Of a stretch of 64,000 nucleotides of DNA, positions 24,201 to 59,806 are shown piece by piece; the first letter of the stretch is position 1; each line of letters opens with the position of its first letter. The stretch lies in NCBI GenBank assembly GCA_029964075.1, contig CM057147.1:10871513-10935512 (forward strand), read 5' to 3'. Made by a program: the position numbers and the translations under genes. A model generated the notes under the pieces. That model worked only from the letters and a program-made list of their open reading frames with translations, was not told the DNA's origin and did not search any database. The stretch comes from Patiria pectinifera. Taxonomy: Eukaryota; Echinodermata; Asteroidea; Valvatida; Asterinidae.

Positions 24201-26852
24201 CCTGCTCCCATGGATGCCTTCAACCAATGTCCTCACTTCAACAACCCGCTCTCCTGCCCTCGCTTCATCCCACTTGACATTCAGTGTCTTCAAGCAGGCA
24301 CAGGTCAAAGGTTATTTGAGCACATTGACCCTAGCAGCCAAGAGAGGAGAGTTCACTTACTCCAGGAGACAATTCTGAAGAGGTACGTTTTGCTATTATT
24401 ACGTTTTGCTTTTATTTGGGGTGATCCGCCATCACCCCCATCGACCCCCATCATGCCCAAAAACATTTCCTTCAAAAGGAACAATGCATGAACTTGACAC
24501 TTGCTGTGAACATCAAGCTCATACAGAAACACAACTGTAGTGTCATGTTGATGTCATCATGTATCAGATTACAAATGGTTTTAGTTCAGTTATTTGAGTA
24601 CTCTGACGTCATCAAACTGAAGTGAAGTGTCAATCAACACATACAAATATGAATGTGTCATATTAAAGGGAATGTGCATCATTGGCTTTTGCTGTAATTT
24701 TCAGAAATGAACTATTTGGGGGGTTAGTATAATAGATCAAATATTGTTACACTGACATGTTTGAAGTTTTTTGTTCGAAAATGCTGGAAAAAACCAAGAA
24801 AAACAAAAATGTTCAAGTAGTCTGGTTCCCTGACTCCACCAAAGATAAAATGGATCAATTTCCAGATGCCGGAAAATTGTAAGGTAAGGGAACAAGTCTA
24901 GCTGGCCTGCACCCGTTCATGAATATGTAACCAATAAAAAATGGTAAATTTGGAGCAGTAGATGCAAAATAGTTAGGTTTTTCCAACGGTGGTCGGCCGA
25001 CCACCGCTGGAAATGTATACAAAAATAAGATTTTCTTGAAAATGACTTCACACCAGGTGCCATAATTTTACAGGATGCTTTAGACTGTCATTTACCAACA
25101 TCCTAGTAAGGTATTTCGTAAAAACTTGGTAGTTTTATTTTTCAATGTTTGCAAATGTTGTTTATTCCCTTTAAAGAAAATGTTTTCCTTTCACTGCTTT
25201 TTGGTCAAATGATCAAATGCTAAAGTAGAAATATTGCGGGTAACACCATGTGGAAAGTAATCTTTTCAGAACCACACTTCCAAGAAGAAAATACTTTCCA
25301 CATGGTGATACCCGCAAACTCTCTGCTTTATCTCATCCTTCAGGCAAAGCTTCAATTCATGGATGAAATGCTAATCTGATATATTAATCACAGATTTATC
25401 ATTTTAACCATGTTGACAGCGTCAATTATATATACGGCACTGTACAGTGTACGATGCGCCCATTGAACCTGCATACGTAACCACCATGCTAAACCTCTAG
25501 ATTTAAAGTTGTTTTGTTATTTCTGATAATGAAATTAAAAATTCCCCCCCCCCCCCCCCCCCCCGAATGCACAAGCACTTAAGTTCCTTGGGAGGCCTAT
25601 AGAGAGAAGACATTGAAGAAATGTTTTTATTTCGGAGATGGGAGAAGAAACCCAGATTGCCATCCCAGGGAAAACCCACGGAATTATGCACAGACTGAAA
25701 ACCCAATCCACATATGGGTGGGATTCGCACCTTGGTCACAGAGTTGGAAGGGATGGAAATATACCAACTATGTGACTAGCGTTGCTTTTTACTTTTGATA
25801 ATAAGAATAAGCATATGGTGACTGTTCTATGTTCCGACACCCCTATGTTCCGACACCCCTATGTTCCGACAACCAGCACATAAGATTGTGTTACTCCCGG
25901 TTAGGGTTAGGGATAGGAATAGGAATATGTGCAGCCGGAACATAGGGGTGTCGGAACATAGAGGTGTCGGAACATAGAGGTGTCGGAACATAGAGGTGTC
26001 GGAACATAGGGGTGTCGGAACATAGAGGTGTCAGAACACAGGGGTGTCGGAACATAGGGGTGTCGGAACATAGGGGTGTCGGAACATAGGGGTGTCGGAA
26101 CATAGAGGTGTCGGAACATAGGGGTGTCGGAACATAGGGGTGTCGGAACATAGGGGTGTCGGACCATAGAGGTGTCAGAACATAGGGGTGTCGGAACATA
26201 AAGGTGTCAGAACATAGGGGTGTCGGAACATAGAGGTGTCAGAACATAGGGGTGTCGGAACATAGAGGTGTAACTGAAGCATATCACTCTTTACTTTTTC
26301 ATTTTGCGTACCAAAATATTACAATGAAATCCACCACTGCCAATTTTGAAAGTCCATAATGATCTTTTTCCCCTGTACAGGTTTGGTTTCATCAAGGCCA
26401 GCGAACCCTTCCCCCTCTCTCCCATCACATCCCAGCATTCCATTAAAGACCAAATTCAATATGTCCATGTGACAGGCATGGCGCTCATCCTCATCGTACC
26501 ACCCACCAATCAGGACACTAGATTCTGGGATGACCTTTTGCCCATTTACGGTGCTTCGACCTCCGGAAACAGCCCAACGGACCAGGAGGCAAGGACACAT
26601 GTCAAGACAGAGCCTGATCAGAAAGGGCTTCCAATGCAAGACCGGGCATCAAATTTGGTTGCAGAAGTGGGATTCCTGTGGGTGCCCAACTACCTGCTAA
26701 CCAAACGCTGGCGCACAAGCTCCTCCGGAGATGAGAAGTTTCTTGAGAGACTGTTGCAGGATTTCACAAGCTTCTGTGAGAACTGTGACAATCGTCTGAG
26801 TGAATTCTGGGAGAAAAGCAAGAAGGCTTGCCACTCTGCAACCCAACAATAG
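3031..26852 (+). CDS. DEPDC5: DEPDC5 orthologue, C-terminal part (13 exons; N-terminal half lies outside the window)
   Basis: GATOR1 complex subunit (yeast Iml1 family). In the known family GATOR1 is a GTPase-activating complex for RagA/B at the lysosome that switches off mTORC1 when amino acids are low. Thirteen exons join as 3031-3230, 4465-4554, 5319-5410, 6656-6827, 8348-8557, 10953-11063, 12864-13105, 14404-14539, 15517-15625, 18485-18757, 20345-20550, 24153-24382 and 26381-26852. All introns are GT-AG, all phases agree, and the sum is 846 complete codons plus a split first codon and a TAG stop. The product follows vertebrate DEPDC5 from the GxDWKSL block through the DEP domain (exons 8-9, SEAVHWIM ... 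ITHASG-like ICHASG) to the C-terminal domain ending near GDEKFLERLLQDFTSFC. Vertebrate DEPDC5 is about 1,600 residues, so this is roughly the second half. Poorly conserved linker exons (10953, 12864) are serine-rich and acidic. No frameshift or stop was seen, so the gene looks functional. Confidence 0.94.
3340..3800. repeat. Complex inverted-repeat element in DEPDC5 intron
   Basis: The block GATCCATGGCAACAACAGTGTGA (about 3414-3440) recurs inverted near 3715-3742, as do GAGTGGAACA / TGTTCCACTC and CCTGATTGGT / ACCAATCAGG. The centre is a hairpin at about 3607-3669 with arms TGCCCCACATACCA and TGGTATGTGGGGCA. The sub-blocks are in a different order in the two arms, so this is a rearranged palindrome. 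Confidence 0.65.
3979..4345. mobile_element. PIF/Harbinger-like MITE (copy 3, inverted)
   Basis: Starts GGCCACAAAAAAAAGTCTCC and ends GGAGACTTTTTTTTGGGCC. TAA lies at both edges (3976-3978 and 4346-4348). It is the reverse complement of the 884-1216 element along most of its length, about 120 bp before DEPDC5 exon b. Confidence 0.85.
4465..4554 (+). CDS. DEPDC5: DEPDC5 exon b
   Basis: Acceptor CATGCAG and donor GTAGGT. Thirty codons in phase 0 begin GFQMVVVPK, matching the vertebrate GYQIIVQPK strand directly after the QRLMQ block. The exon lies 119 bp downstream of a Harbinger-like MITE (3979-4345). Confidence 0.88.
5319..5410 (+). CDS. DEPDC5: DEPDC5 exon c
   Basis: Acceptor TTCATTCCAG and donor GTAAGG. 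It reads HEYVLSIGRIFHKL, matching vertebrate QYWLSMGRTFHKV. It ends with two bases of an Arg codon completed in the next exon. Confidence 0.92.
5709..6214. mobile_element. TTAA-flanked MITE (family K1, copy 1)
   Basis: Starts AGGGAAAATACAAC and ends GTATATTCCCT, with TTAA on both sides (5705-5708 and 6215-6218). Inside are a 28-bp hairpin CCAACGCTGGTC/GACCAGCGTTGG (about 5873-5900) and the inverted pair CTGGTTCCCTGAC / GTCAGGGAACCAG. TTAA plus an AG-rich end fits Kolobok-like elements (piggyBac ends start CCCT). Copies lie at 24667 and 39385, and a fragment at 9280. Confidence 0.8.
6656..6827 (+). CDS. DEPDC5: DEPDC5 exon d
   Basis: The acceptor is TGTTGTAG and the donor GTGAGG. One base completes the split Arg, then 57 codons follow, including YYTYQLW and MLENFNWNYLDNYV. 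The last block aligns with vertebrate EEYKWNYLDQYI. Phase 0 end. Confidence 0.92.
7330..7985. repeat. CTTAAGATGAG-rich repeat with a nested inverted-repeat MITE
   Basis: Outer parts (7345-7470 and 7810-7985) are dense in ATCTTAG/CTTAAGA words. The element at 7535-7790 is inserted between them. Confidence 0.55.
7535..7790. mobile_element. MITE with about 45-bp inverted ends
   Basis: Arms GGGTCATTCTATAAATTTGG at the left and CCAAATTTATAGAATGACCC at the right, extending inward to CCCGTCCCTGTTAC / GTAACAGGGACGGG. Target duplication not clear. Confidence 0.75.
8348..8557 (+). CDS. DEPDC5: DEPDC5 exon e
   Basis: Acceptor TCTGTCTAG and donor GTACTT. Seventy codons start SLKLWRSRFLLLPT (vertebrate SLKFWRTRFLLLPA) and continue to GFIKFLETLNRLRR (vertebrate GFVRFVEGLNRIRR). 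The end is a basic RRHHSGGRRSK stretch. Phase 0 at both ends. Confidence 0.94.
9280..9555. mobile_element. Fragment of family K1 MITE
   Basis: It shares CAAGCCAGCTAG, TGGTTCCCTGAC, GTCAGGGAGCCAGACTACA, and CCATTTCTGAAAATTACA with the 5709 copy, in the same order. The left half is missing. Confidence 0.7.
10291..10813. mobile_element. TTAA-flanked MITE (family K2, copy 1)
   Basis: Ends AGGGGTACTAGGTCCTGAA and TTCCAGGACCTAGTGCCCCT, TTAA at 10287-10290 and 10814-10817. 523 bp. The 111-codon open frame inside it is also partly kept in the copy at 47968, but it shows no known domain. Confidence 0.85.
10953..11063 (+). CDS. DEPDC5: DEPDC5 exon f (Ser-rich linker)
   Basis: Acceptor CAAATCAG and donor GTACTA. 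It holds 37 open codons (AGSFSVNLG ... RKSSDGSLK) in phase 0 with both neighbours. It has no recognised domain and falls in the linker that varies between species. The call rests on splice sites, an open frame and phase fit. Confidence 0.75.
11095..11475 (+). mobile_element. tRNA-derived SINE
   Basis: The head looks like a tRNA with an A box (TGGTCCAGTGG) and a B box (GGGTTCGAATCCT). The central body has CTTGAGCAAGGCACTTTA and GATGTAAAGCCGTAGGTCCCG, followed by TTAAAGAACCCAG, blocks seen in invertebrate SINEs. It ends in an A run at 11471-11478. About 380 bp, in the intron after DEPDC5 exon f, same strand. Confidence 0.85.
12206..12781. mobile_element. hAT-like MITE (TAATGTTGTGCA ends)
   Basis: TIRs TAATGTTGTGCA and TGCACAACATTA, 8-bp duplications ATCTAGAC / ATCCAGAC (7 of 8 match) at 12198-12205 and 12782-12789. 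Inner ends carry GGGTCGGGTCGG-type repeats. A fragment of the same right end lies at 47505-47600. Confidence 0.82.
12864..13105 (+). CDS. DEPDC5: DEPDC5 exon g (acidic linker before DEP)
   Basis: Acceptor TTATTCCAG and donor GTAAGC. It reads a Ser/Thr/Pro-rich segment, then an acidic EEGEDGELDTEGEWED stretch, then LWEIAKAMREQ, which corresponds to the vertebrate TEILEAMK helix before the DEP domain. It ends with CA, completed as Gln by the next exon. Confidence 0.86.
13288..13519. mobile_element. Palindromic MITE (TTATAGCGCCGAAGGCGC ends)
   Basis: About 60-bp inverted arms run from TTATAGCGCCGAAGGCGCAA to TTGCGCCTTCGGCGCTATAA. The centre has several AACCATTGTG / CACAATGGTT palindromes. TA may be the target site. 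The near-identical ORFs on both strands are by-products of the palindrome. Confidence 0.85.
13930..14205. mobile_element. GTCGACTAG-type MITE, diverged copy
   Basis: Shares AGCAACGTGCGAAC, GGATCCTGGCT, CCCCAGTAGG, CACCGTCGACTAGACAG and CTTGCGCGAACTTG with the 16206 element, in the same order. The left end is degraded. Confidence 0.72.
14404..14539 (+). CDS. DEPDC5: DEPDC5 exon h, first half of the DEP domain
   Basis: A long pyrimidine tract and CAG precede 14404; the donor is GTAAAG. In the correct phase it reads IPSNCFMASEAVHWIMSTLQ and continues to EEAVEILQ, matching vertebrate PYCFISAEVVHWLV. A shadow frame gives a stop shortly before the Met, so the phase matters. Confidence 0.94.
14830..15310. 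repeat. Local tandem duplication in DEPDC5 intron
   Basis: Three or more diverged copies of TGGTGGTTGGCTGTATGG...CTCGACCATTT and of ACGGGCACTGCACTCTATA. The open frames here arise from the repeats and are not genes. Confidence 0.65.
15517..15625 (+). CDS. DEPDC5: DEPDC5 exon i, second half of the DEP domain
   Basis: Acceptor CTTTGCTAG and donor GTTTGT. It reads NMTEEGLICHASG then FWHGFYLYYIV, the conserved end of the DEP fold (vertebrate LEEQLITHASG ... YGFYFYKIV). It ends in phase 1. Confidence 0.95.
15678..16114. mobile_element. Pogo/Tigger-like MITE
   Basis: TIRs CAGTGGAACGTCGCTATTAC and GTTATAGCGACGTTCCACTG. TA precedes the left end (15676-15677); the right TA is mutated. CAGTGGAACNTCGNTATAAC ends are characteristic of Tigger/pogo elements. 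It lies in the intron after the second DEP exon. Confidence 0.8.
16206..16514. mobile_element. GTCGACTAG-type MITE
   Basis: TIRs GGCCAAGTTCGGGCAAGGAC and GTCCTTGCGCGAACTTGGCC (19 of 20 match when inverted). Internal TAGTCGACTAG and GTCGACTAGAC words. A shorter relative lies near 17680-17880. Confidence 0.78.
17891..18111. mobile_element. Palindromic MITE, GGCCCAATTTCAC family (copy 1)
   Basis: Arms GGCCCAATTTCACAACGCTG and CAGCGCCGTGAAATGTGCC, plus inner AGCCAAAACTCCATG / CATGGAGTTTTGGCT. Confidence 0.78.
18124..18398. mobile_element. Palindromic MITE, GGCCCAATTTCAC family (copy 2)
   Basis: Arms GGGCCCAATTTCACGGCGCT and AGCGCCGTGAAATTGGGCCC. It directly follows copy 1, in the intron before DEPDC5 exon j. 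Confidence 0.8.
18485..18757 (+). CDS. DEPDC5: DEPDC5 exon j
   Basis: Acceptor GCTGTCAG and donor GTGAGG. After a basic Ser-rich start it reads NEWFEVAV and PQFLLPVLPRPVSPA, matching vertebrate RKWFEVAF and PAFLLPWLPSRPA. The tail is acidic. Ends in phase 1. Confidence 0.93.
18758..20344. other. DEPDC5 intron: poly-G tract, TACCC-rich runs, nested palindrome
   Basis: It contains a G17 run near 18935-18951, degenerate TACCC repeats at 19060-19200 and 19810-20035, and a repeat at 19445-19670 related to 675-880. The hairpin at 19670-19782 interrupts that repeat. Confidence 0.6.
19670..19782. repeat. Palindromic MITE (TTAAACACTCTGT family, copy 2)
   Basis: Arms TTAAACACTCTGTTTAAGAC and GTCTTAAACAGAGTGTTATAA around a perfect GGGTGATAATTACCC stem. 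Same family as 1462-1549. Confidence 0.82.
20345..20550 (+). CDS. DEPDC5: DEPDC5 exon k
   Basis: Acceptor AATAACAG and donor GTGGGT. It reads KTDRVEWCHINYNGCF and FQVEWLVSTPSLLVEV, matching vertebrate RTDRLEWCSCYYHGNF and the IKLHWMAVTAAVLFEM strand. A second AG three bases downstream would break the phase, so 20345 is the start. Confidence 0.93.
21355..22156 (+). pseudogene. Non-LTR retrotransposon reverse transcriptase, C-terminal fragment (L2/CR1-like)
   Basis: The open frame reads LKLNEEKTEVIHI (the KLNxxKTE motif), then LGVTVKTNLQM, LVHAFITCCLDFCNSLL, LQRVQNSAARLV, HWLPVRQRIVYK and LWNKLPQSI, and stops at 22154-22156. These are the usual motifs of the RT thumb and C-terminal part of CR1/L2/Rex-type LINEs. 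The catalytic palm (YxDD) and the endonuclease are absent, so this is a 5'-truncated copy. The 3' UTR (about 95 bp) ends in a (TTA)n run at 22225-22255, consistent with a LINE tail. The element sits inside a degenerate TTGACTCGA repeat. Confidence 0.9.
22157..22256 (+). repeat. LINE 3' tail with (TTA)n microsatellite
   Basis: Directly follows the RT stop. It contains a GC-flanked GCGCATTGGG...GTAATGCGCTTAATAAG stem typical of L2-like 3' ends, then (ATT)n. Confidence 0.75.
22962..23420. mobile_element. hAT-like MITE with perfect 8-bp duplication
   Basis: TIRs TAAGGCTGAAATGATA and TATCATTTCAGCCTTA, direct repeats ATCTGTAC at 22954-22961 and 23421-23428. Inner ends are rich in CGATATATCG palindromes. 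Confidence 0.9.
23552..24081. mobile_element. TA-flanked MITE just upstream of DEPDC5 exon l
   Basis: Ends TTATACCATGGTAATAGATT and AATCTATTACCATGGTATAA form a 20-bp inverted repeat. The right end is about 70 bp from the acceptor at 24152. Confidence 0.78.
24153..24382 (+). CDS. DEPDC5: DEPDC5 exon l
   Basis: Acceptor CCGATTCAG and donor GTACGT. It reads LQGWARKAVQCGFHLVPAP, then PRFIPLDIQCL, then RVHLLQETIL, matching vertebrate GWHRKATSCGFLLVPV, FIPLNISCL and MHLFQEAI. It ends with AG, completed by the next exon to give the conserved RFGF motif. Confidence 0.95.
24667..25170. mobile_element. TTAA-flanked MITE (family K1, copy 2, inverted)
   Basis: Starts AGGGAATGTGCATCATTGGC, ends GTTTATTCCCT, TTAA at 24663-24666 and 25171-25174. 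504 bp, reverse orientation to the 5709 copy. It keeps the inner hairpin CCAACGGTGGTC / GACCACCGCTGG. Confidence 0.82.
25235..25316. repeat. Short hairpin MITE
   Basis: GCGGGTAACACCATGTGGAA and TTCCACATGGTGATACCCGC are inverted around about 30 bp. Confidence 0.7.
25828..26272. repeat. 16-bp minisatellite with an inverted short arm
   Basis: About 21 copies of GGAACATAGGGGTGTC (variants A/G) run from about 25938 to 26270. Three copies of the reverse complement (GACACCCCTATGTTCC) lie at 25828-25875, with a 60-bp spacer between. It is in the last DEPDC5 intron, 110 bp before the acceptor. The long minus-strand ORFs are products of the repeat. Confidence 0.92.
26381..26852 (+). CDS. DEPDC5: DEPDC5 terminal exon
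   Basis: Acceptor CTGTACAG. It reads FGFIKA, then QYVHVTGMALIL, VPNYLLTKRWRTSSSGDEKF and DFTSFCENCDNRLSEFWE, which parallel the vertebrate C-terminus (QYIHVTGTVFL, MLTKTWRSSATGDEKF, DFCINRDNRLVTFW). The stop is TAG at 26850-26852. Confidence 0.96.
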
Positions 26853-36340: not shown

Positions 36341-36703
36341 GATGAGCTAGGCTGCTTTGTCTGGACGAAAATCAACCCTCCAAGGCTCCAACAGCCTCAT
36401 CACACAGAAACTCAGGAACCGGAAGCAGGGAGGAGGACCGACGGATGAACGGATGACCTGCTTGCTGGGCTACCCATTACTGATTCTTGAGGTTAGTTTA
36501 CATGGTGGCCTCCTCTTCCCAGGATCAATCAAGTCACAGAACTCATCAAAATGGGCGATCTGACTCTGTTTTAATGTTCTTCCACACACGAGTTCTGGTA
36601 GCGGGCTTTGCTTTGTGGGGTTAATTCAATATTTTCTTTCCCTTTTCTAGCCCTGGCATGAATACAGCTTAATAATTAAAATGTTTCTTTCATATCCTTT
36701 CAG

Positions 36704-36884
36704 AAAAATGAGGACCACCGACTGATGAGGGAATTGCTTTACTGAGATTGATGAGCCTGCCTCAAGACATCGTCAGGGCTCCAACAGCCTTATCACACAG
36801 AAACTCGAGGAACTGGAAGCAAGGAGGAGGACCGACAGATGAACGGATGACCTGCTTGCTGGGCTTCCCATTACCGACTATCAG
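36704..36884 (+). ncRNA. Exon-like unit 2 of the tandem array
   Basis: CCTTTCAG before, GTTTGT after; 181 bp. It has stops in each full-length frame. Units 3 (37101-37281, 181 bp) and 4 (37502-37684, 183 bp) have the same boundaries and length. Confidence 0.4.
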
Positions 36885-37100
36885 GTTTGTGTACATGTAG
36901 CCTACTTAAACAGAAACAATCAAGAACTAAAATCAAAATGGGCGATCTGGCGCTCTTCTATGTTCATCTACAAACAACGAGTTCTGGTGACGGGGTTTTG
37001 CTTTGTGGGGTTATTTAATGTTGTCTTTCCCCTTTCTAGCCCTGGCACGATTACAGCTCAATAAATCAAATGTTTCCTTTCGTTATTTGAATCCTTTCAG

Positions 37101-37281
37101 AAAAATGAGGACCACTGACTGATGAGGGAATTGCTTTACTGAGATTGATGAGCCTGCCTCAAGACATCGTCAGGGCTCCAACAGCCTCATCAAACAGAAA
37201 CATGAGGAACCGGAAGCAGGGAGGAGGACCGACAGATGAACGGATGACCTGCTTGCTGGGCTTCCCATTCCTGATTATTAG
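37101..37281 (+). ncRNA. Exon-like unit 3 of the tandem array
   Basis: ATCCTTTCAG before, GTTAGT after; 181 bp, closest to units 2 and 4. Confidence 0.4.
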
Positions 37282-37501
37282 GTTAGTTTACATGTAGGCC
37301 TCCTCTTAACAGGAACAATCAAGTCTCAGAACTAATTTAAATGGGCGATCTGACTCTGTTATTATGTTCGTCCACAAACGAGTTCTGGTAGCAGGGCTTT
37401 GCTTTGTGGGGTTAATTCAATGTTTTCTTTCCCCTTTCGAGCCCTGGCACGAATACAGCTCAATAATTCAAATGTTCCTTTCGTTATTTAAATCCTTTCA
37501 G

Positions 37502-37684
37502 CAAAGTGAGGACCACTGACTGATGAGGGAATTGCTCTACTGATATGAGGATGAGCCTACCTCAAGACATCGTCAGGGCTTCGACAGCCTCTTCAAACAG
37601 AAACCCGAGGAACCGGAAGCAGGGAGGAGGACCGACAGATGAACGGATGACCTGCTTGCTGGGCTTCCCATTAAAATTCTTGAG
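37502..37684 (+). ncRNA. Exon-like unit 4 of the tandem array
   Basis: ATCCTTTCAG before, GTTAGT after; 183 bp. It keeps the GGAACCGGAAGCAGGGAGGA block. Confidence 0.4.
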
Positions 37685-37909
37685 GTTAGTTTTTAGTAAC
37701 ATGTACATACAGAATGAGCAGAAACAAAATCAAAATGTGTGATCTGGCGCTCTTCTATGTTCTGCCACAAAATAAAGAGTGCTGGTAGTGGGGCACTGCT
37801 TTATGGGGGGTAATTCGAACATTTCTGCCCCCCTCCTCTTGCTCTACCTTTCAGATATTTCTTAATAATAATTGGGATATTTCCTTTCGTCATTTGAATC
37901 TTTTTACAG

Positions 37910-38037
37910 ACATGAGGAGCACTGACTGGTGAGGGAATTGCCCAATGATGGATGAGCCTGCCTCAAGCTGCCATGAGCTGGGAGGACCGACGGTTGACTG
38001 ACACTGCCTGCTTGGTTGGCCATCACCGATTCTTGAG
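37910..38037 (+). ncRNA. Exon-like unit 5 (shortened) of the tandem array
   Basis: TTTTTACAG before, GTATGT after; 128 bp. About 55 bp of the core is missing. Confidence 0.35.
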
Positions 38038-43154: not shown

Positions 43155-43968
43155 AGTCATGTTCCCAAATCAAAAGATTCTGACTACATTTGTATTTTTA
43201 ATGAATCTTAGGCTTTTGGTCTGGGAACCAGACTAGTAGCACGCTGTGCTGGTACATCAACCAATCCCCAACGGTCTACCAAACCAGCTTGGACACTAGG
43301 GCCTTTATCCAAGTTTTTTTTTGTCAGTGTTTGCATTTTTGTCAACATCATTTTTACTTAGAAATTGCAAAAAAGGTATTTCATGCCTGTGATTTAGAGA
43401 CATGTTTGCTTTGTCCCCAGGCTGATCACATTTACCAACGCGCCGTAGGCCACAGGTTAGAGAGCAGTGGCTTAAAGTCCTCAACCGGGCTGATCCACAA
43501 CACCAACACCGGTTCCTAAGGCCATCGAAGGACGAAAGAGTTTGTTCAAGGCATTTTGGGGGTAAGCAATTAGCAGGGGCGAGCCAGCCTCATGATGGGG
43601 GTGGGGTGGTGGTGACAGGAGTCAGAGTGGAACTGAACGTCGAAATCTTGAGCCATTTAGGTTTAGTACAGAATTCACACCGAAAGACATGGGCACTACA
43701 ATATAATACGGTTGATTACCATTTTTGCTGACATTTCAAGGTAGTTTAGCCTACTAATTTCACAACTGTTCTTTCTATTGACCACAGATTGTAAACCAAC
43801 GGAGAAGAACCCTCTTCCAAGTCTGTACCTTGGGTATATTTCAACGCCTATTTGAGAGGCTGCAGAAGCACGTAAACGGTGAGCTGAGAAAAGGAACCTA
43901 CGCAGACATCGGGTAAAAAAATCTTGTAGCACCGGGCCCCAGACCGGTGCAGCAACTCTTCCATTACG
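43155..43968. other. No gene recognised; left flank of the decayed transposase
   Basis: Probably includes degraded parts of the ISL2EU-like element, but no end could be placed. The 43289-43519 frame has no known motif. Confidence 0.35.
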
Positions 43969-44490
43969 TTGTGTTCAGTTCATCATAATGCTGCTTCTCA
44001 AAGTCATTATAAATTTAAACAAGACTATTCACGTCAAGTCACTGCTCTCATCCGTGAGAATAAAGCACTGATTAATAAAATTCGGTATATTGGAAAAGAA
44101 CTAAAATGTGAACGATCAGCTTCCTTGGCAGATGATCTCCGGAAGACGGACAATGATGCGTGGCTCATAGCTTTAAATTCTGTGGTGGGCAGATTTGTGC
44201 AATGGCCAGCCAAGGAACATGTGAAAACAACTATGCCTGGACGTTATCAGCATTTGCCGGACCTAAGATGCATAATTGACCGCACAGAAGTCTTCCTTGA
44301 GACGCCAAAGTATCTGTTTCAATACAAGCACCATAATACCGGAAAGTTCCTGATAAGTGTAGCGCCGAATTCTATGATAACGTGTGTCCCGTGTGTGTGG
44401 TGGGCGAGTGTCTGATAATAGAACTGACGGTTCAGTGTGGATTTCTTGACCTGTTGGAGCCTTATGACATGGTTCAGGCAACCAATGGTT
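43969..44490 (+). pseudogene. Decayed DDE transposase, ISL2EU / IS5-PIF-like
   Basis: The open frame from 43969 begins with a coiled-coil-like charged segment, then reads WLIALNSVVGRFVQWPAKEH, RYQHLPDLRCIIDRTEVF and YKHHNTGKFLISVAPNSMIT. This is the DDE_4-type core of eukaryotic transposases (known pattern: WPSRE, a VIDCTE-like motif holding the first Asp, then YKxHNTxKFLVGVxPxG). A frameshift near 44390-44410 moves the rest (CGFLDLLEPYDMV) into another frame. The second catalytic Asp, normally in a LADRGF-like motif, is lost (QATNGF here). The domain then stops abruptly, and the region between the coiled coil and the core is shortened. It is non-functional. It converges with the YqaJ gene fragment on the opposite strand. 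Confidence 0.82.
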
Positions 44491-44765
44491 TTCTTAAACA
44501 AATCTACCTTTTTTTTCAAATTTGCTATATTCTTCTGTCAAATAACCATTTTTGCAGAATTCTGCCAGAAATCCGCCATAAAAATCCGTTCTGTCAAATT
44601 TTCTGTCAAATTCGTTTTGAAACAAAAAATCTGTCAAAGATAGCCGAAAATCGGCTAAAACGATCACCATGCAAGGAAGTCCCCTTACCTCACTTCCAAG
44701 ATTCCCATTTGGAATCGGATCTGAAAATAGTAGGACGATGTTCGAGATAGCTGACCCTGACCATT

Positions 44766-46590
44766 CTAAACTTTCAAGTGCTTATAATTATCGATGGTTA
44801 GAATTTCTGATTTTAGTGAATAGGGACACTTAATTTCACATACACCCCTCCCATGACACAAGCAGGAAACGACAAGGTCTGGGGATGCACCAAGAAACTG
44901 CTTCTTGTGGGAAATAATCAGACCACTATCTTTTCCTTGGAATTTCTTGTGTTGTCTAGCCATTATCTTCTTTTATGCCAATTTTGCATGCGGCTCAGTT
45001 GAATTGCCAAACCTCATGGCAGCTGATTTGGGAACATTTTTATAACCCAGTATTACTTCGACCAATGAGGAACCATCAAGCGTGGGGTCTCGCTTCAGTG
45101 ATGCAACCCATGTAAATACATTATGAATTTTGCTTGCGGTTATCCTCCCTTGTCGATGTTCCACCCACTCACTGGAAGATACGGAAGCTTGAATTGCCTT
45201 CCGCGTTACCGCGTTACCGCGATAATTTATCGCAGAAATCCAGAAATCAGAGATAATTCCTTCCGCGATACCGCGTTACTGCGATAATTTATCACAGAAA
45301 TCCAGAAATCAGAGATACCTATTCCGTGATACCGCGTTACTGCGATAATTTATCTCAGAAATCCAGAAATCAGAGATACCTATTCCGCGATACTGCGTTA
45401 CTGCGATAATTTATCACAGAAATCCGGAAATCAGAGATAATTCCTTCCGCGATACTGCGTTACTGCGATAATTTATCACAGAAATCCAGAAATCAGAGAT
45501 ACCTATTCCGCGATACTGCGTTACTGCGATAATTTATCACAGAAATCCGGAAATCAGAGATAATTCCTTCCGCGATACTGCGTTACTGCGATAATTTATC
45601 ACAGAAATCCAGAAATCAGAGATACCTATTCCGCGATACTGCGTTACTGCGATAATTTATCACAGAAATCCGGAAATCAGAGATAATTCCTTCCGCGATA
45701 CCGCGTTACTGCGATAATTTATCACGTATACGGAGCTTTAAATTCATATGTGTCTCCAACCTCGTCCCCAGTGCTTACTTTATTTCCAACCGTGTTTCCA
45801 ATAGTAAGAGAGCAGGTAGTGGTGGGCGCCCTGCTCGACACCCTGGGGACGAGGTTGATGTGTCGCCTCTCTACAATCGATGAGTGCGCGGTGTCACGTG
45901 ATAAATTATCACGGTAACGCGGTATCGAGGAAAAGGTATCTCGGATTTCTGGATTTCTGAGATAAATTATCGCAGTAACGCGGTATCGCGGAAGGAATTA
46001 TCTCTGATTTCCGGATTTCTGTGATAAATTATCGCAGTAACGCGGTATCGCGGAATAGGTATCTCTGATTTCTGGATTTCTGAGATAAATTATCGCAGTA
46101 ACGCGGTATCCCGGAAGGAATTATCTCTGATTTCCGGATTTCTGTGATAAATTATCGCAGTAACGCAGTATCGCGGAATAGGTATCTCTGATTTCTGGAT
46201 TTCTGTGATAAATTATCGCAGTAACGCAGTATCGCGGAATAGGTATCTCTGATTTCTGGATTTCTGAGATAAATTATCACAGTAACGCGGTATCACGGAA
46301 TAGGTATCTCTGATTTCTGGATTTCTGTGATAAATTATCGCAGTAACGCGGTATCGCGGAATAGGTTTCTCTGATTTCTGGATTTCTGTGATAAATTATC
46401 GCAGTAACGCGGTATCGCGGAAGGATTTATCTCTGATTTCTGGATTTCTGCGATAAATTATCGCGGTAACGCGGTAACGCGGAAGGCAATTCAAGCTTCC
46501 GTAGGAAGACGACCGTCGGGCCGTGAGTTCAGTACTGATATCCTCTTTTGTAAGACAAACCTTGGGGACAAGCTGTGCATGATGTTGCAT
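44766..46590 (-). pseudogene. YqaJ-like exonuclease of a DNA transposon, split by a foldback insertion
   Basis: On the - strand the gene reads from 46590 to 46504, is interrupted by the element at 45180-46503, and resumes at 45179 down to 44766. After the break it reads SEWVEHRQGRITASKIHN, GNSTEPHAKL, SGLIISHKKQFLGASPD and GVCEIKCPYS. This is the YqaJ/lambda-exonuclease fold, with the metal-binding Asp (SPD) and the E-x-K pair visible. There is one in-frame TAA (44973-44975) between HAKLA and KKIMARQ. The later part of the family domain is missing. Removing the insertion plus one target-site copy (1,330 bp) puts the two sides in the same frame. In known ISL2EU elements a transposase and a YqaJ protein are paired, as here. 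Confidence 0.82.
45180..46503. mobile_element. Foldback transposon with tandem-repeat arms (1,324 bp)
   Basis: The two ends are perfect inverted repeats starting TACGGAAGCTTGAATTGCC and continuing identical for at least 60 bp. A 6-bp direct repeat GGAAGA flanks it (45174-45179 and 46504-46509). Each arm is a tandem array of 61/62-bp units (about 8-9 on the left, 9-10 on the right) built on CCGCGATACCGCGTTACTGC and GATAATTTATC. Most units alternate between two forms ending ATAATTCC and ATACCTA, giving a 123-bp higher-order period. A 170-bp spacer (about 45727-45898) contains its own inverted pair (CAACCTCGTCCCCAG / CTGGGGACGAGGTTG). No ORF of its own, so it is non-autonomous. The superfamily is not clear. 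Confidence 0.9.
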
Positions 46591-46599
46591 GTCATGTGG

Positions 46600-47500
46600 T
46601 ACTATTACTAGTCTCTATTTCTACACATTTCCCCATCCATTGTCAGCCACAAGACTAATGTCAATGATAATGAATGATGAAGAGGTCAGTCTTCTCAAAC
46701 AGTTGGACCATGGTTGGCATGGATGGACGTGTACCAGTCTAGTCTTTAGCCTCGTTTTGAAATCACTTGTCTTCCCTGTCATGTGCAAAAAATATTGGAG
46801 AAAAGTCTCCTTTAAAAATTGACAAATGATTGAGTTGAGCATGGTGAGTTTTCAAACGTGTCAAAATTCGGGATGAAATAATAACTAAAATTTTGTTATT
46901 ATTAGTTTAGTCTAAATTAAACTATCTAATCTGAGAGCACTGAGGACCTTTTTTTAAATTCTTTGCCCAAGAAAATTGCCCAAGAAATTTGTCGGAGAAT
47001 TGTGTCACAGTGTCAGCTGAAGAGAAAGTAAAGTTGGCCTGATGGTTTTGTTTTTCATGTTTTTCAGCACTCAATATCCCTGAGTCTGGCCCTAGCCCGG
47101 CCCATTGCACGTATGATGTAGGCAGTACATGTACAGCATTGACCACAGCACAGTGACAGTTGACTTGACTGATTCAAAAATGATTCGGAAAGAAAACTAA
47201 CGGATTTGAATACTGAATGAACTGCAGGGAGATGGATTTAATGTATCACTATTATCAATGTCAGCCTAAATATTAATGTGAGGACACAAAGTTTTGATCT
47301 TGTCCTATTCGCTGGGAAATCACATGCGAAATTGATTATATTATGACAGCGCTTACGCTTACCGTTACTGCCGCACACCTCGCCGTCATTTTGAAACTTT
47401 TGATCGCAACTTCAAAATGAGGCTCTTTCACGCATGCGCATTTTTCGAAGTGTAGGCCTAAACCTGTGTATAACGATAGGGCCTTTTCGGGGGTTTTTTT
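46600..47500. other. No gene recognised; right flank of the YqaJ fragment
   Basis: The YqaJ gene may extend upstream here on the - strand, but the reading frame breaks and no motif could be followed. Confidence 0.35.
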
Positions 47501-51480: not shown

Positions 51481-51782
51481 GATCGTTTGGAAGGCCTGGA
51501 TTTTTGGAGACGTTGAAATGAGCTCAAGTTGCAGTGGTACAAATGTCATATGTAACGCCCTGTTGTTTTTCATCAGCCTGGAAAAGGAAACAAGTTAGCG
51601 TCGGGATCCATAGCCTAGATAGCGAGCTGCATTAAGCCACATAACAGGGAAATCGGCCTGTGGTTAAGCGTTCTCTGCACAGCAACGCGGGAACACCACA
51701 GACGAAGGCAGTTACTCAAACTCTGGCATTTAAACAGACTGACATCACGTCCATATAACGGAGTCGATTGTGTAGAATTAAA

Positions 51783-52785
51783 ATGGCGTTCGATTGCATC
51801 GACAAAATCGTCAGGTTGTGCTTCTTCAACTACGGTGGATTCATCGCGAGGCACCCGATTCCCTTTCTTCTGGTGCCGCTACTTGTTGCCGGAGCACTGG
51901 GGGCTGGGATGGTGTTTCTGACGGAGGAACAGAGCGTGGAGAACCTGTTCACTCCTGAAAATGGCCAGGCCAAGACGGACAGAAACACGGTGGAAACATT
52001 ATTTGCCGAGCACGGTGACAATGACACGCTGGTGTCACGTCTGACGAGACTTGGTCGGGCTGGCAGCGTGATTATACGGCACAAGGATGGACAGAACATC
52101 CTGACCCAGGCGGCCATGGATGACATTTTAGATTTACACGAGCAGATCATGACCACCAGCATCAAACACGAGAACAAAAACTACACATTCAGCGATCTCT
52201 GCGTGAAATGGAACGGTGTTTGTAACGAAAACCCCATACTGGCTGCCTATGATTACAACTCGTCTAAGGTTCCGTCGACCACCCTGACATTTCCCCTCTA
52301 TACCTCACCAGCCGATAACACCGTAACTTATTTTCTCGGTGGAGGACTAGGTGGAGTGACTTTTGTATCAGGTTCTCAAGATGATGTCCTCTCGGCTGAG
52401 GTCATTAAGTTGTCCTACTTCTTACGGTATGAAGACAGCGTGGAGGACCAGCAAAGCGCCTTGTGGGAGAAAAAGTTTCTGGAAGTGGCTGAGGCTTTCA
52501 CGTCATCGGTCATCACAGTAACTCGCGAGGTGTCTTCTACTCTAGAGAGCGAGTTGGATAAAGCTAGTTCCAGTGTCGTTAAGGACTTTTCTATCACGTT
52601 CACCATCGTGATCACGTTCAGTATCTGTTCTTGCGTGATGCTAGACTGGGTGCGTAGCAAGCCCTGGCTGGCCGCTTGTGGTGTCCTATCTGCCGGCCTG
52701 GCCGTACTTTCATCATTCGGGCTGATGAGCTATATTGGAGTACCGTACATTAATGTCGTCGGCTCAGCACCATTTCTCATCCTCG
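51783..52785 (+). CDS. PTCHD3-like exon 1
   Basis: 334 codons plus one base. The donor is CTCG|GTGAGT at 52786. It carries TM1, the first extracytoplasmic loop with Cys residues (SDLCVKWNGVC) typical of patched-related loops, TM2, TM3 and the start of TM4 (PFLILG). Confidence 0.93.
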
Positions 52786-55700
52786 GTGAGTAAACCTTAC
52801 TTTACGGAGCATAAAAAAAAACCACTTTATAATCCCACGTGTACAGTAACACCTGCGAGGGATTTAAACAGACGACAGAATATCCCAATGTAGTAGGTAA
52901 CTAAATTCTTCAGACATAATTATTTTTTTTTCTGATAGGGTGACAAGTTTGTCATGTAGTTCATATCTGTAATTAAAAGTACAATATGAAATACAGGACT
53001 AGACATCCTCAATGTACACTTTTTCAATCATGTGTTACACGAATCAACGGTAAATCAGTCTGGTTCTGATGTTAATGTTATGACGTCGTGTCAAAGAATA
53101 GGACCAGCAACTGATTTCAGGAGACTCATCTTAACTTACGATGCATCGCAGCACGACAAACAGAACATAATGCTTTTTCGCATTTACACAAAGTCATGTT
53201 TGCTGTGTTTGTCCTTTCCAGTCCCTTTTGAGAGTGCATGATACTTCAAAATGCTCAGAATAATTAGAAAAACAACGCTTTATCACATGCCTATTCTGAA
53301 TTCAATTTGACATTTCATGTCAAACTATGCACACAGAAAAATAAATATTCATTTTATAAAAATGAATAAAATATTAGTTGATAACGTCATCATGACACCA
53401 TTTCATATTGCAATACTTTTATCATTATCTAACTTCCCACCAATTTTCATCACGATCGGACCTTCCCTTGTGCCTTGAAAAAATAAATTGACTGACTGAC
53501 GTCATCATGACGTCACACCTTTTACAAAATTGTGTGCACATACATATGACCTAAGAACCCTAATGCAAAAAGAATTTCGAATTTTGCATGGTGGGTTTGA
53601 GATATGTGGCTAAGAGGTAAAAAACAACAAACAAAAACAATTTAACATATAACACATCCCGGTCTATACATACCGAGTTTCGACCCAATCGGACTTACAG
53701 TTCTGTAGATATAGGATTTTAAAGTATGCATATTTGTGACCACGTCACGTGAGCCATGATGACGTCATCATGAGTCACTCTTCGGGACACACCTTTTTAT
53801 AGGGACTATGCCTATGCTGACTTACAACGATTTACGACAAAGATGAATGCCAAACACTGAGCGGTACAAACATCGTGTACAAAGTCTGGGTCATTTTTCA
53901 TGGAACAAACAGAAGAAAGAAACTAGAGGTCTATGTCTGTTTGAAACAGAACATAGGGCTTTTCCGCATTATATTTTTTGTATGACTTTGTGCTTTTTAG
54001 ATTATATAATAGTACATGTTTTTATGTACATTATTTTCTAAAAATAATGTACATGTACATGTACACGCAACATGTACATACATGTACATGTACATGCGGT
54101 CGTATTAACGTAGATAGGCCTAATACAGGGCACATGGAAATGGGGAGAAACACTGTTTTGTATACGACGTCTATGTGGCTTGGAATCTGATCATAATGTC
54201 ACCAGAAAGCAACTTTTTTTTTTAGACAATTGCATACGGATTATGTCGGGGCACAGGAAAACGCGGAGAGATACTGCTTCACTTTCGCCGTAAATGACCC
54301 GCGCAATTGTACTCACAACATGTATATGGGTGTACCAGTACATGATTTGTATAAGTTCGAAACATGCATATGCACTGTACGGGGCACAGTGAAACGCGTA
54401 GAAACACTACTAAATACAAAGTCTATGTGGCTTTGCAAACTATACTGATTGAGACAAAAATCTGATTGTAATGTCACCCGAATGCAACTTTATTTTAGAA
54501 AATGAGAATATGTTAATGTGGTCTTGGTCTGTACCAAATTTTGAGTCGATCAGATCAAAAACTGTCAATTTTTCTGATAAAAGAAACAATCTTTAAAAAA
54601 AAAAAAAAAAAATAAAAAAAATCAGCCCATGATGTCATTATGACGTCACTTTAGATTTTGCATACTAGTACCATTATCTATTTATTTACCAAGTTTCATG
54701 ACGATCGGATCTTCCCCGTGTCGAAAATGGCATTTTTAATGACGTCATCATGACGTCACAGACTTGTATTTTTGTTTGTGCATACATGTACGCCCTAACA
54801 AAGCCGTAACATTTTTTTTTTTTTGAATTTGGTGAGGTGGTCTGCCCTACTTTGATTCTAGGGTTGGGGTCTGTCCACTAATAAAAGATGGATGAAGCTG
54901 GACACCAATCGGTGACTTTGTATTGTTTATTCAGAAATGCTAGGGAATAAGAAGCCCAAGGTCAGTCTAGCCTTGATGTTGTCTCATAAATCAAGTGGTG
55001 GCTGCACGTTCTGCCTGCCTGGAACTGATCACCAACAATCCACAATCCGTTCAATTTTTTGGAAGGCATTTGCGTGTACCCATGCATGTGTGCAAATTGC
55101 TCACCGTGCTGTCCGCACGCATGAGTTCTCATCGGGAAAAACCCATCAGCACGCAATACACGGAGGCGGTGTCATAGCAAAATGGAACCCCACATCTTTT
55201 TCGAGCGAATTCGTATGCATGCACAGCCGCGGTTTCGTATAAAACCGAATAATTCGTATAATACACCCACAACTTCCCTGCTGTTATGCCATGCGACCCG
55301 AATGGCACGTATGTTCACGACCATGATGTAATGTTGAATGTTGGTGTACGGAATGGGGTTTGTGGAGGTAGTTATGGACAGCTCGAACTTGTCAATGCAC
55401 ATTTTTGCATTGTGGTCTTGGTTTGTACATAGCTTGAAGTCAAGCCAATGAAAGGAATTGTTACATTTTTGAAGCGGAATGAAATTGTAAATAGTAAAAA
55501 AAAATCATTTAAAAAAATCAACCGATGGCGTCATGGTGACGTCTTTTTAGATTTTGCATACCAGTGTCATCTAGCTATCCACCGAGTTTCATAACGATCG
55601 GACTTTCGCTTATATTTTTTTTTCAAAAGTCGCATTTTTGATGACCGTTATGATGACGTCACACATTTTCCATTTTTTTTGCATAAACCTATTATCTAAC

Positions 55701-58700
55701 AAACCAAAAGCAAAAATAACTTAGAATTTAACTTGCTACGTTCGTGAGATATGGCATAAAAGTACAAACATTCAAAAAAATCGTTTAAAATCACACGATG
55801 ACGTCATTATGACGTCACCTCAATTTTTATCTATAACACATCAATAGGACTGACAGTTTTGTAGATAAAGGTTTTATCCTGTAAAGTTGGTATGGTGTCC
55901 TTGAAGGACACAAATAGTTATGAAATGTAGATGCGATGTAGTGTAGTTTTCATGACTAGTTAAAAAATTGTGATGACGTCTAAACGTTTTGCCACAAAAA
56001 AAGTCATGAAAGGGTAGCGGCTCGTCATTTAATTTTCTGACACCGTATTTTGTTTTGCAAGTACGTTCATTGGTTTTGCAACGTCGTGATTTTTTGAAAA
56101 TACATTAAATTACATTTTTCATTGTCATTCATGAAATTTGTCACGGGTATATAGTGGACTATAATCGTAAAGATTGTCACTGTTACAATACACATTTATT
56201 TTGACTTCCAAATGCATGTAACTTTACACCAAGGAATATGGCTAAAATGCAGATTCCCTCAGGAAGATAGAGGATTTGGTGCCCCCTGTCTTGAGGACAA
56301 GAAATCTCAGGATCTACTTTGTACAACCCCTTTACAACGTCCTGTCAGGTCATGTTGGCCTTCTTGAAGAACCCCACGACCAAAACAATTATATATGCAC
56401 TAAATCTCGAAAATGTCTGACGTCATCATTACGTCATCATTACGTCATCAAAATGTGATTTTTGAAACACTTTTGAGGGAATTTTTATCGTTATTAAACT
56501 CGGTGAGTAGGTAGGCATTGATAATAGTTTTCAATACCTGAAGTGACGTCATGATGACGTCATCAACTGTTTTTATTATTTTTTTACTTTTAATCTATTC
56601 TTTCTCATTGCAAAATTTAACATGATTTTTTTTCAAATACAATCCAGTTAAAACTGGACACATACTTAGACCACCATCTGAAGATGCATTTCAAATCATG
56701 ACGTCATGATGATCTCATCGGCGACAACGTGACATACCCTTAAAGTTGCATTTTGTTTGCAGGCTATATCCGGAAGTACATGTTCGACTGAGTTGGACGA
56801 TTGGATTAAATTTGTGTACATAGTAAGGGATGTGTAATTGATGAAAACTGAAGTGATGTCATCATGTGAATTTTTATCGATTTCTCATTTTTCTGTATTC
56901 ATCTCATGATCGAAACGTGACTTTTTGAAACACATATAAGGGAATGAATGATCGTTATCAAACTCGGTGGGTAGTTAGATATTGATACTAGTATTTATAA
57001 TATGAGGTGACGTCATGATAACGTCATTAACTTGTTTTACAGATTGACTTCAACTAGGCATAGACTAAGACTAATGCATCTTTGCTAAAGTTGGTCCTGA
57101 ACTAGTGACATTGTGATGGCGTCATCAGTGGTTGTGTGATATCATCTTAAGGTGCTTAAATTAAAGTTCTATATTAACCGATTTTGTTGAACTTTTGTAT
57201 ATAGACAGGGAGGTGTTAAGTATGAATATTGAAATGACGTCATGTTGACGCCATCATGTGATTTTATTTAGATTATTGAAATTGTACAGTTTATTGCAGT
57301 ATCTCACATACGCAATGTGCAAAACATCTATGTATTTTTTTAGCTGTATGCACAAAGTTTCAAATAATGTGTGACGTAATCGGAACGTCATCAAAAATTA
57401 TAGTATTTTGAAAACATATGAGAAGAATGCCCGGATGCTTGGAACTTGCAGGGTAGTTAGATAATGTCAATGGTATTCACTGTGTGAAACGACGTCACGA
57501 TGATATTCATCAGTTGATTTATTTTGCAATTGTAATAGTTTTTAAGTTTGAAAGTTATATTTAAACGTCCTTTAACTAAACAGTTAACATGACTGCATAT
57601 GGTCCAAAAAAGCTGAAACCGTTTCTAAACTATGAAATGCGGAAAAGCTGTATGCGCTGTTCATCGAACAGAAATAGACCTAGTTTAGTTGGTATAATTT
57701 ATTTGTTTGTTCAAAGTTTAAATGTGCAGATGTCAATGCATAACATTTAGCAAAATAACCTAACCCTAAAAGTAACCTAATAAAGAAAAAAAAGGAAAAA
57801 AAAAATATTAATCAATGTTACTGACTAAAAAGCTTAAAATTAAGAACTACATTCATTGGGTGATATTTGTACTTACTACTGGATCCAGTCTGTAACATTA
57901 AACAGCAAAATGGATCAAGTTTTGGTTTCTAGATTTTATTGGCAGATGGGAAAATGTGCCTTGATTGGAATTTACTTTTGAAAACAAATGACTGTCGAAC
58001 ATAATTGAACACGTACTTGTTTATCAGGCATGTGAGACAAAAACACCCTGAAAGTAGTTTAGGAAGGTAGCATTGTGATATAAATATGGGGAAACGCATA
58101 GTCATGTCATCATAGTAGCTGGTATCAGAAGAGATACAAGTACGGATTCCTTGTCAATGGAAGATAGTGTATTATTGGAAAGCAATTATTTGGTCTGACA
58201 ATTTGTTTTCAAGATTTCTTAATTGTTTCCCTCTTTCTTAACAGGTATTGGAGTTGATGATATGTTCATCATGTTGGCTGCTTGGCGACAGACTGACGTC
58301 AGATGGCCAGTGGAACTACGCATGCGCCATGCCTTCTCTGAAGCCGCCATGTCTATTACCATCACGTCCGTTACAGACTCTCTGGCCTTTGGAATTGGCG
58401 CCATTACGTTCTTCAGATCCGTCCGTATATTCTGCATGTACACGGGTGTGGCCGTCATCTTTGCCTACGCCTATCAGATCACTTTCTTCGGCGCCTGTAT
58501 GGTGCTGACTGGTCGTCGCGAGGCAGCTAACCGACATTGCATGTCCTGCCTCAAAGTCCGACCTAAGAGTGAGTCTAAGTCAACAGCCTACACCATATTC
58601 TGCGCTGGTGGTTCTCCCCACCAACCCAGAGTCAGGGATGGTGGTGACACTAACGACCACGCCCTGATGCTGTTCTTCAAGAATTACTACGGCCCATTTA

Positions 58701-59806
58701 TCACGCGTTGGTGGGTGGTGATTCTGACTATATTACTGTTTCTGGGCTACCTGGGCACCGCCATCTACGGATGCACCCAGGTTCGCGAAGGTCTCACTCT
58801 CCGCAACCTTGCCAGAGATGACTCCTACGCAGCCCACTTTTTGGATGATGAATCGCAGTTTTTCACGACGTACGGCCTTCAAGTTTCGCTGGTCTTCACG
58901 GAGCCCATAGACGTGTGGAATCCTGTGGTGCAAGATCTCATAGAGGAAACCTTAGCTAAGATGGAGGCGAATGAGTATGCGTACGGTGAGGATCGGAATC
59001 TGACTGGGTCTTGGCTAAGAGATTATCTGGCATTTCTCGACACCATCGGTCTCAGCAATGCAACCCAGACTCAGTTTGTAGACATATTGCGAGAGAATTT
59101 CCTGAAGATTCCAGCCTACCAGAAATACTCCTTAGATGTCGTCTTCTGTGACAATGGCACCACTGTGGCGGCAACAAGATTCTTTGTCACCACCAAGGAC
59201 TTGGATTCCACAGACAAAGAGCGATTCATGATGACAGATATGAGGGAGATAGCTGAGAACTCAGAGCTTCCTGCTATAGCTTACCATCCAGCCTTTATTT
59301 TCTTCGATCAATATATAGCCATCCTACCTAACACACTTCAGAACATGGGTATCGCGGTGGGCGCCATGTTGATCGTGGCTCTGCTCATGATCCCCAACCC
59401 CATCTGTTCTCTCATTGTCACCCTTTCCGTAGCCTCTATCGTCACAGGGGTGGTCGGGTTCATGACCCTGTGGCAGGTCAACCTCGACTCCATCGCCATG
59501 ACCAACCTCATACTCTGCATAGGTTTCAGTGTGGATTTCTCAGCCCACATCACCTATGCTTACATAGCAGCTAACACAGGCCGTCGTCGCAGTAACGTTA
59601 TTTACGCCCTATACTCCCTTGGAATGCCGATCGTTCAAGGATCCCTTTCTACCATACTCGGTGTCGTAGTTCTCGCCTTCACAGACTCTTACATCTTCCG
59701 GACTTTCTTCAAGACCATGTTTCTCGTGATCTCCCTTGGAGCGCTGCACGGCCTGCTCTTTCTGCCAGTAATGTTCTTGCTCACAATTCCCGTTAAGTCT
59801 CGCTGA
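51783..59806 (+). CDS. Patched domain-containing protein 3-like, complete, two exons
   Basis: Patched/RND family membrane protein, most like PTCHD3 and nematode patched-related proteins. Exons 51783-52785 and 58245-59806 give 854 residues. The start ATG at 51783 (context AAAATGG) is the first in-frame ATG. Visible domains: TM1 near residues 25-47; a large non-cytoplasmic loop with N-glycosylation sites (for example NYTF); TM2 (FTIVITFSICSCVML) and TM3; then the sterol-sensing-type TM4 motif GIGVDDMFIM, formed exactly across the splice junction. A second half follows with its own loop and the TM10 motif GFSVDFSAHITYAY. These paired Asp-bearing TM4/TM10 motifs are the usual patched/RND proton-relay positions. 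The 3' end VFLLTIPVKSR is followed by TGA. Cargo and cell role cannot be told from sequence. No defect was seen. Confidence 0.93.
52786..58244 (+). other. PTCHD3-like intron, rich in TGACGTCA palindromes
   Basis: GT-AG intron of about 5.5 kb with no coding sequence recognised. Between about 53380 and 57500 it holds more than a dozen clusters of TGACGTCA or near matches, often paired as TGACGTCATCATGACGTCA. A longer unit recurs near 53438-53520, 54690-54770 and 55580-55665: a pyrimidine-rich stretch, then CGATCGGA, then the paired palindromes. Near 54000-54090 there is a (TGTACA)n-type run. Confidence 0.75.
58245..59806 (+). CDS. PTCHD3-like exon 2
   Basis: Acceptor TTCTTAACAG precedes 58245. 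The first two bases complete Gly and give LGIGVDDMFIML. It encodes the rest of the first six-helix half, a second large loop, and the C-terminal helices with GFSVDFSAHI. Stop TGA at 59804-59806. Confidence 0.94.

Follow-up and report, generated by a model that had tools for sequence, protein, structure and literature searches.

A foldback element inside a probable transposon relic

The window, a stretch of 64,000 nucleotides of Patiria pectinifera DNA (contig CM057147.1), contains a foldback element of 1,324 bp inserted in a YqaJ frame, which itself most likely belongs to the relic of another transposon. The features of the locus are given below in window positions, with the strand where one applies.

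43426..43731, plus strand: THAP domain fragment of the host relic
43930..44415, plus strand: DDE_Tnp_4 fragment of the host relic (20.9 bits, under the curated cut-off of 24.8)
44766 to 45173-45179, minus strand: YqaJ piece of the host relic (Pfam match; one in-frame stop)
45174..45179: left target-site duplication, GGAAGA
45180..46503: foldback element, 1,324 bp, with IS3EU-type ends TACGG..CCGTA and TACGGAAGCTTGAATTGCC at both termini
45180..45256, plus strand: perfect outer arm, left, 77 bp
45199..45725, plus strand: left-arm array, 8.6 units of 61/62 bp
45723..45728, plus strand: CACGTA at the inner edge of the left arm
45729..45894, plus strand: spacer, beginning with the end-like motif TACGGAGCTTTAAATTCATATG
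45758..45857: nested MITE of 100 bp in the spacer, with inverted ends AACCTCGTCCCCAG and a 10-bp duplication, ATGTGTCTCC / ATGTGTCGCC
45895-45900: CACGTG at the inner edge of the right arm
45898..46484, minus strand: right-arm array, 9.6 units of 61/62 bp
46427..46503, minus strand: perfect outer arm, right, 77 bp
46504..46509: right target-site duplication, GGAAGA
46510..46614, minus strand: upstream piece of the YqaJ open frame, without a Pfam match alone

The borders that an earlier note on this DNA had proposed for the foldback are exact, with TACGGAAGCTTGAATTGCC at either end, and so is its 6-bp duplication GGAAGA, which lies directly outside each terminus, while the perfect outer arms, put there at 60 bp, measure 77 bp instead. 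The two arms are 96.9% identical and collinear across 544 bp. They are built from two main unit types, one of 62 bp with an ATTCC end and one of 61 bp with a CCTA end; the two forms described earlier are hence present, but they do not strictly alternate, their order being mixed in this copy (successive spacings of 62, 61, 61, 62, 61, 62, 61 and 62 bp in the left arm and of 62, 61, 61, 61, 61, 62, 61 and 62 bp in the right arm) as well as in others. With long inverted arms of tandem repeats, a short spacer and no long frame (open reading frames of at least 120 amino acids are absent from the window copy), the element has the architecture of a foldback.

Regarding the insertion site, dropping the element together with one GGAAGA (1,330 bp) leaves the frame open across the site, as had been claimed. 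The YqaJ profile starts in the left piece, whose in-frame stop lies between 44766-44972 and 44973-45179; the right piece has no Pfam match. ISL2EU elements are described, in the accessible part of the source, as encoding a THAP/DDE transposase in one ORF and YqaJ in another (PMC4482050), and the target shows this layout, with THAP, DDE (its match below cut-off) and YqaJ side by side. Because of the adjoining THAP and DDE_Tnp_4 fragments, the disrupted frame is most likely a transposon gene and not a host gene. The probable target of the insertion is an ISL2EU-like relic with a THAP, DDE and YqaJ set, which is no part of the foldback. An empty site was sought with a 200-bp query of the joined flanks; its four matches are the flanks of this locus and of the second copy described below, and none spans the junction.

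A mobile family in the genome

The earlier note had suggested a genome search with the element end and an alignment of copies, and this was carried out in the genome containing the window (613.5 Mb in 1,020 contigs). The exact 19-bp end occurs 235 times, 116 forward and 119 reverse, with none for the reversed pattern used as control, and a query with the terminal 81 bp gave 40 full-length matches (40/282 candidates scored). A young subfamily, in which the end is followed by TTCCGCGTTAC, accounts for 77 ends. Elsewhere, the 19-bp end was found 0 times in viral contigs and once in prokaryote contigs, about the chance expectation. Present in such numbers, these long inverted repeats may affect assembly and recombination in the host genome.

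Thirty loci around the 40 full-length matches were sampled, 31 with the window; as copies were picked by best end match, the sample is tilted to young and intact ones. Both ends are present in 27 of the 31 loci; the other four (L013, L019, L024 and L031) lack one exact end within the fetched stretch, with an exact end just beyond it at L031. One of the two-ended loci, L014 (C19:10946900-10949600), repeats the window locus (44409-47109) at a distance of 30,979 bp, with the same insertion and GGAAGA and an identity of 99.59% over the 2,701 bp compared; the locus either underwent segmental duplication recently or was duplicated in the assembly, which leaves 26 independent copies.

An exact 6-bp target duplication flanks 22 of these 26 copies. 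The flanks match at 3, 5, 7, 8, 9 or 10 bp in none of the 26 and at 4 bp also in one, and mismatched flank pairs, taken as control, match at 6 bp in 2 of 650 cases. Both control matches trace to L011 and L029, unlinked copies with a common target duplication, CGCAGT; a weak target preference of the family is possible. The four exceptions comprise L009 and L034, where five of the six bases match, and L021 and L033, where this is not so. GCAG, which resembles CGCAGT, adjoins copies L040 and L049. With duplications at many sites, the mobility of the family is shown.

The copies are far from uniform. Element length ranges from 477 to 1,632 bp among the 26 independent copies and the number of units from 2 to 14 per arm, with a left-right correlation of 0.43 (27 elements, including the duplicate), and the unit types are mixed in order across copies. 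The two arms of an element resemble each other about as much as randomly paired arms do (0.958 vs 0.956; permutation p = 0.098, not significant, 26 elements).

A shared spacer with an end-like start

The spacer is common to the family, with a mean pairwise divergence of 2.2% and a maximum of 8.8% in an alignment of 23 of the 27 elements, duplicate included, in which two of the 23 excised spacers extended into the array. The nested MITE is missing in L018 and L022 and, among the loci read at the inner motif, in 11 more, which were selected by an uninterrupted motif, a choice that favours older copies; at L066, also read there, the sequence diverges. In L018 the unoccupied site is ATGTCTCTCC, one base off the duplication. 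The MITE-less copies and this site indicate that the MITE arrived later, with its 10-bp duplication.

In the MITE-less copies the spacer starts with TACGGAAGCTTTAAATTCATATG, the first 11 bases of which are identical to the outer end of the family. This inner motif has 21 genome matches at up to two mismatches (control 0). An ancestral one-armed copy was sought among them, and in 13 of the 21 matches read, the motif lies directly behind an arm in 13 of 13. It is flanked by CACGTA on the left, and CACGTG stands to the right of the spacer. When its 57-bp spacer is removed, L018 leaves a nearly perfect central palindrome. These features suggest that two arms were joined at a palindrome, into which a short insert, its start resembling the family end, then intruded. 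Against this, a matching end is lacking on the right of the insert, and both CACGT copies could be plain arm sequence.

An integrase-bearing relative with related ends

Within one foldback copy, L054, a second element starts, with the end TACGGAAGCTTAAAGTGACC, which has 308 genome matches at up to two mismatches (control 6). A profile search of the genome with PF24764 (rva_4, integrase core), which we take as a marker of IS3EU/GingerRoot transposases, gave at least 87 matches. Among them, those at C3:6122040-6122585 and at C7:16144347-16144892 are each situated 1.6-1.7 kb inward of a TACGGAAGCTTAAAGTGACC-type end. At the C3 locus, ends are found at 6108026 (plus strand) and at about 6124245-6124264 (minus strand), 16.2 kb apart, and most likely bounded one element, since the duplication GGATCG is common to both. 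The part of this relative that was read comprises 101 bp of left-hand and 2,801 bp of right-hand sequence.

The right part holds an open frame of 453 amino acids, P0001, which matches PF24764 rva_4 with an E value of 2.3e-36 and PHROG 157, a transposase, with 1.9e-10. Its Pfam matches below cut-off are rve (5e-4) and HTH_21 (0.0089), and it has a weak IS481 match (0.0045); compared by sequence with solved structures, it gave no meaningful match (best E value 0.11). Its catalytic triad is likely formed by D193, D252 and E293. Among the matches listed, P0001 has one second copy in the genome, at 98% and with one stop, and fragments at 76-94% on C7 near 3.22 Mb, the remaining ones standing at 57% or less.

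The terminal 80 bp of the relative's right end align with the foldback end with a score of 78.5, the first 11 bp being left out, against a mean of 25.8 (sd 6.3, maximum 55.5) in 2,000 shuffles, that is z = 8.4. The left end aligns with the foldback end too, over the 65 bp read, the shuffle test covering the right end. Past base 11 the ends of the two families are divergent, and because of this divergence cross-mobilisation of the foldback is something that we infer. The relative's right end moreover carries 21 copies of a 31-bp tandem repeat, and a second such end, at L042, carries 24; the 31-bp arrays at these two places indicate that tandem-repeat ends are common to both relatives, with differing units.

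Several observations touch on this second family. Its ends sit within foldback copies L042 and L054, a repeated nesting of two related families. Pairs of TACGGAAGCTTAAAGTGACC ends among the first 100 of the 308 places reveal a short sibling family, with elements of about 870-1,030 bp. At L054 (857-2900; C7:16085856 onward), the repeat array of the TACGGAAGCTTAAAGTGACC element is followed by a gene-like stretch with splice sites apparent by eye (VKILVENTAGEKEALLVNPTDDLRK..), two pieces of which have no Pfam family above cut-off; it is possibly an accessory gene of an autonomous element. Contig C7, with 44.9 Mb about 7% of the genome, holds 38 of the 87 rva_4 matches listed; it is possibly a transposon-rich or a sex chromosome.

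Search for an autonomous partner

An autonomous element with exactly TACGGAAGCTTGAATTGCC ends was not found among the loci and matches listed. The transposase matches compared with the ends were the best candidates, at least 87 from the rva_4 search and at least 97 from the P0001 search. None of the transposase matches listed comes closer than 50 kb to any of the ends compared, which were the first 100 of the 235 and the 77 of the young subfamily, past the first 100 the coverage being complete for the young subfamily only. The shortest distance among the matches listed is 59 kb, between the foldback end at L054 and the C7 copy, and the next is 115 kb.

Among 20 loci with unpaired or odd ends, no transposase with exact ends was recognised in the long frames of 12, which were read by eye and of which four, from L050 and L054, were compared with Pfam. 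At L050 (3815-7361), endonuclease and reverse-transcriptase frames mark a non-LTR retrotransposon beside or in a foldback array, and retrotransposon-like frames were seen by eye at L039, L045 and L054. L068 was considered as a coding insert after the inner motif and set aside, no frame being recognisable by eye. L054 was followed for 7 kb further, over which its right end was not found.

Probable assignment to the IS3EU/GingerRoot lineage

IS3EU elements have TA..TA termini and target duplications that are usually of 6 bp (PMC10045372), and the families of rust fungi have TAYGG..CCRTA ends, 6-bp duplications and terminal inverted repeats (TIRs) of over 30 bp (PMC12730594, section 3.1.3), as far as the accessible text of both sources goes. 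The foldback agrees on each count, with TACGG..CCGTA ends, a 6-bp duplication at most copies, as at the 16.2-kb relative with its GGATCG, and 77 bp of perfect TIR, the published figure for the latter being that of the rust-fungus families. An integrase-type DDE frame, as in IS3EU/GingerRoot, is present in the same-genome relative, whose ends are homologous to those of the foldback but not identical. The foldback is unlike these elements, as published in the parts of the two sources at hand, in its foldback form, its arms of 61/62-bp repeats and its want of a long frame (PMC10045372, PMC12730594). The window element very probably belongs to the IS3EU/GingerRoot lineage, as a non-autonomous DNA transposon of foldback form that would be moved in trans. 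The earlier interpretation thus stands for the foldback, the 6-bp duplication and the insertion in the YqaJ frame, and has to be given up where it left the element without a nameable superfamily: the IS3EU signature fits its ends and duplications, and an integrase-bearing relative with homologous ends resides in the same genome.

An undescribed superfamily, as that note suggested, would accord with the failure to find, among the loci and matches listed, an autonomous copy with exactly the same ends; it is improbable, given that the IS3EU features in the accessible text of the published descriptions match both the ends and the duplication length and that the homologous relative has an integrase-type DDE frame. 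Also improbable is a foldback of another superfamily (Mutator, P type or hAT6) whose TACGG start would have arisen by chance. Most foldbacks seem to be Mutator elements, with exceptions, according to the available part of one account (PMC4079207), and hAT6 elements, in what could be consulted of their description, likewise give 6-bp duplications. Against this origin, Tetris, the foldback assigned to Mutator, has duplications of 8-10 bp (same source, same part), a length found in 0 of the 26 copies here, 22 having exactly 6 bp, and the rva_4 integrase element of the same genome has ends homologous to those of the foldback. The tandem-array arms, by their resemblance to local satellite growth, might also bring to mind an immobile satellite or an inverted duplication formed in place; this can be dismissed, since the copies lie on many contigs, their ends are exact and their 6-bp duplications vary in sequence.

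The family may be without a name of its own, or it may possibly be catalogued already with these ends. In the literature, searched by title or start of abstract, no foldback assigned to IS3EU was found, and the sole co-mention of foldbacks and IS3EU was in an oyster satellite survey, where, in the text accessible, the two mentions are unrelated. Foldbacks often lack a known mobiliser; here the assignment is drawn from the ends, from duplications at many copies and from an integrase-bearing relative in the same genome.

Comparison with known foldback elements

The sea urchin TU and Drosophila FB elements have inverted arms of short tandem repeats, as the window foldback does, and differ from it in their duplications of 8-9 bp and in other unit lengths. 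Two further systems are compared here from the accessible parts of their descriptions. Tetris of Drosophila virilis is, like the present family, an apparently non-autonomous foldback with tandem repeats in its TIRs; it differs in its longer duplications and its repeats of about 220 bp, and its authors suggested Mutator (PMC4079207). Galileo, of the P superfamily, shares long, internally repetitive TIRs with our element and differs by a P-type THAP transposase and other ends, the 1.2-kb TIR of Galileo-G having four long direct repeats (PMC3688188). The Galileo repeats contain extra sites bound by the THAP domain of the transposase, a binding seen in vitro (PMC3688188).

A proposed mechanism

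In the mechanism that we propose, a transposase of the IS3EU lineage would bind the homologous ends and excise the foldback, acting in trans, and the excised element would be ligated into a target site opened by a cut staggered by 6 bp. By the analogy with Galileo and in view of the tandem repeats in the relative, the arm units may serve as repeated secondary transposase-binding sites. They would be gained and lost via unequal exchange or slippage, with arm lengths coming to vary between and within copies. The hairpin itself may have originated when two array arms met at the palindromic centre, split afterwards by the short insert. The MITE would next have landed in the spacer, the MITE-bearing subfamily spreading recently, and the window copy would have entered the YqaJ frame of the ISL2EU-like relic, to be duplicated later along with its surroundings.

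The step concerning the arrays has a serious rival, which leaves the assignment untouched. The arm arrays could be neutral by-products of unequal exchange with no binding role, and this is quite possible, if somewhat short of probable: unit number varies freely, from 2 to 14 per arm, and the types are mixed, while tandem repeats with a different unit at the end read in the relative, together with the in vitro binding of Galileo TIR repeats by a THAP domain, in the accessible text of that study (PMC3688188), speak for binding sites. A bolder reading, to which we give tentative and rather doubtful standing, is that in this genome the transposase-binding sites of an IS3EU lineage have time and again expanded into arrays (31-bp units in the relative, 61/62-bp units in the foldback) and that the foldback joins two of these arms at a palindromic centre, where a later insert left a third, fossil terminus.

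If this reading were true, no foldback family would have been assigned to IS3EU before this one, whose genome also harbours its integrase-bearing relative. Its natural series of arms, from 2 to 14 units, would moreover allow a direct test of the help that tandem TIR repeats give to transposition.

Other features of the window

Two further repeat structures are found in the window. A 397-bp unit is present in about 3 tandem copies at 36381-37967, and 16-bp repeats, CTATGTTCCGACACCC and, inverted, CGGAACATAGGGGTGT (21 copies), make up a small inverted tandem-repeat structure at 25827-25871 and 25936-26271. Finally, open frames at 51768-52793 and 58223-59806 match Patched/sterol-sensing domain families and are probably exons of one gene.
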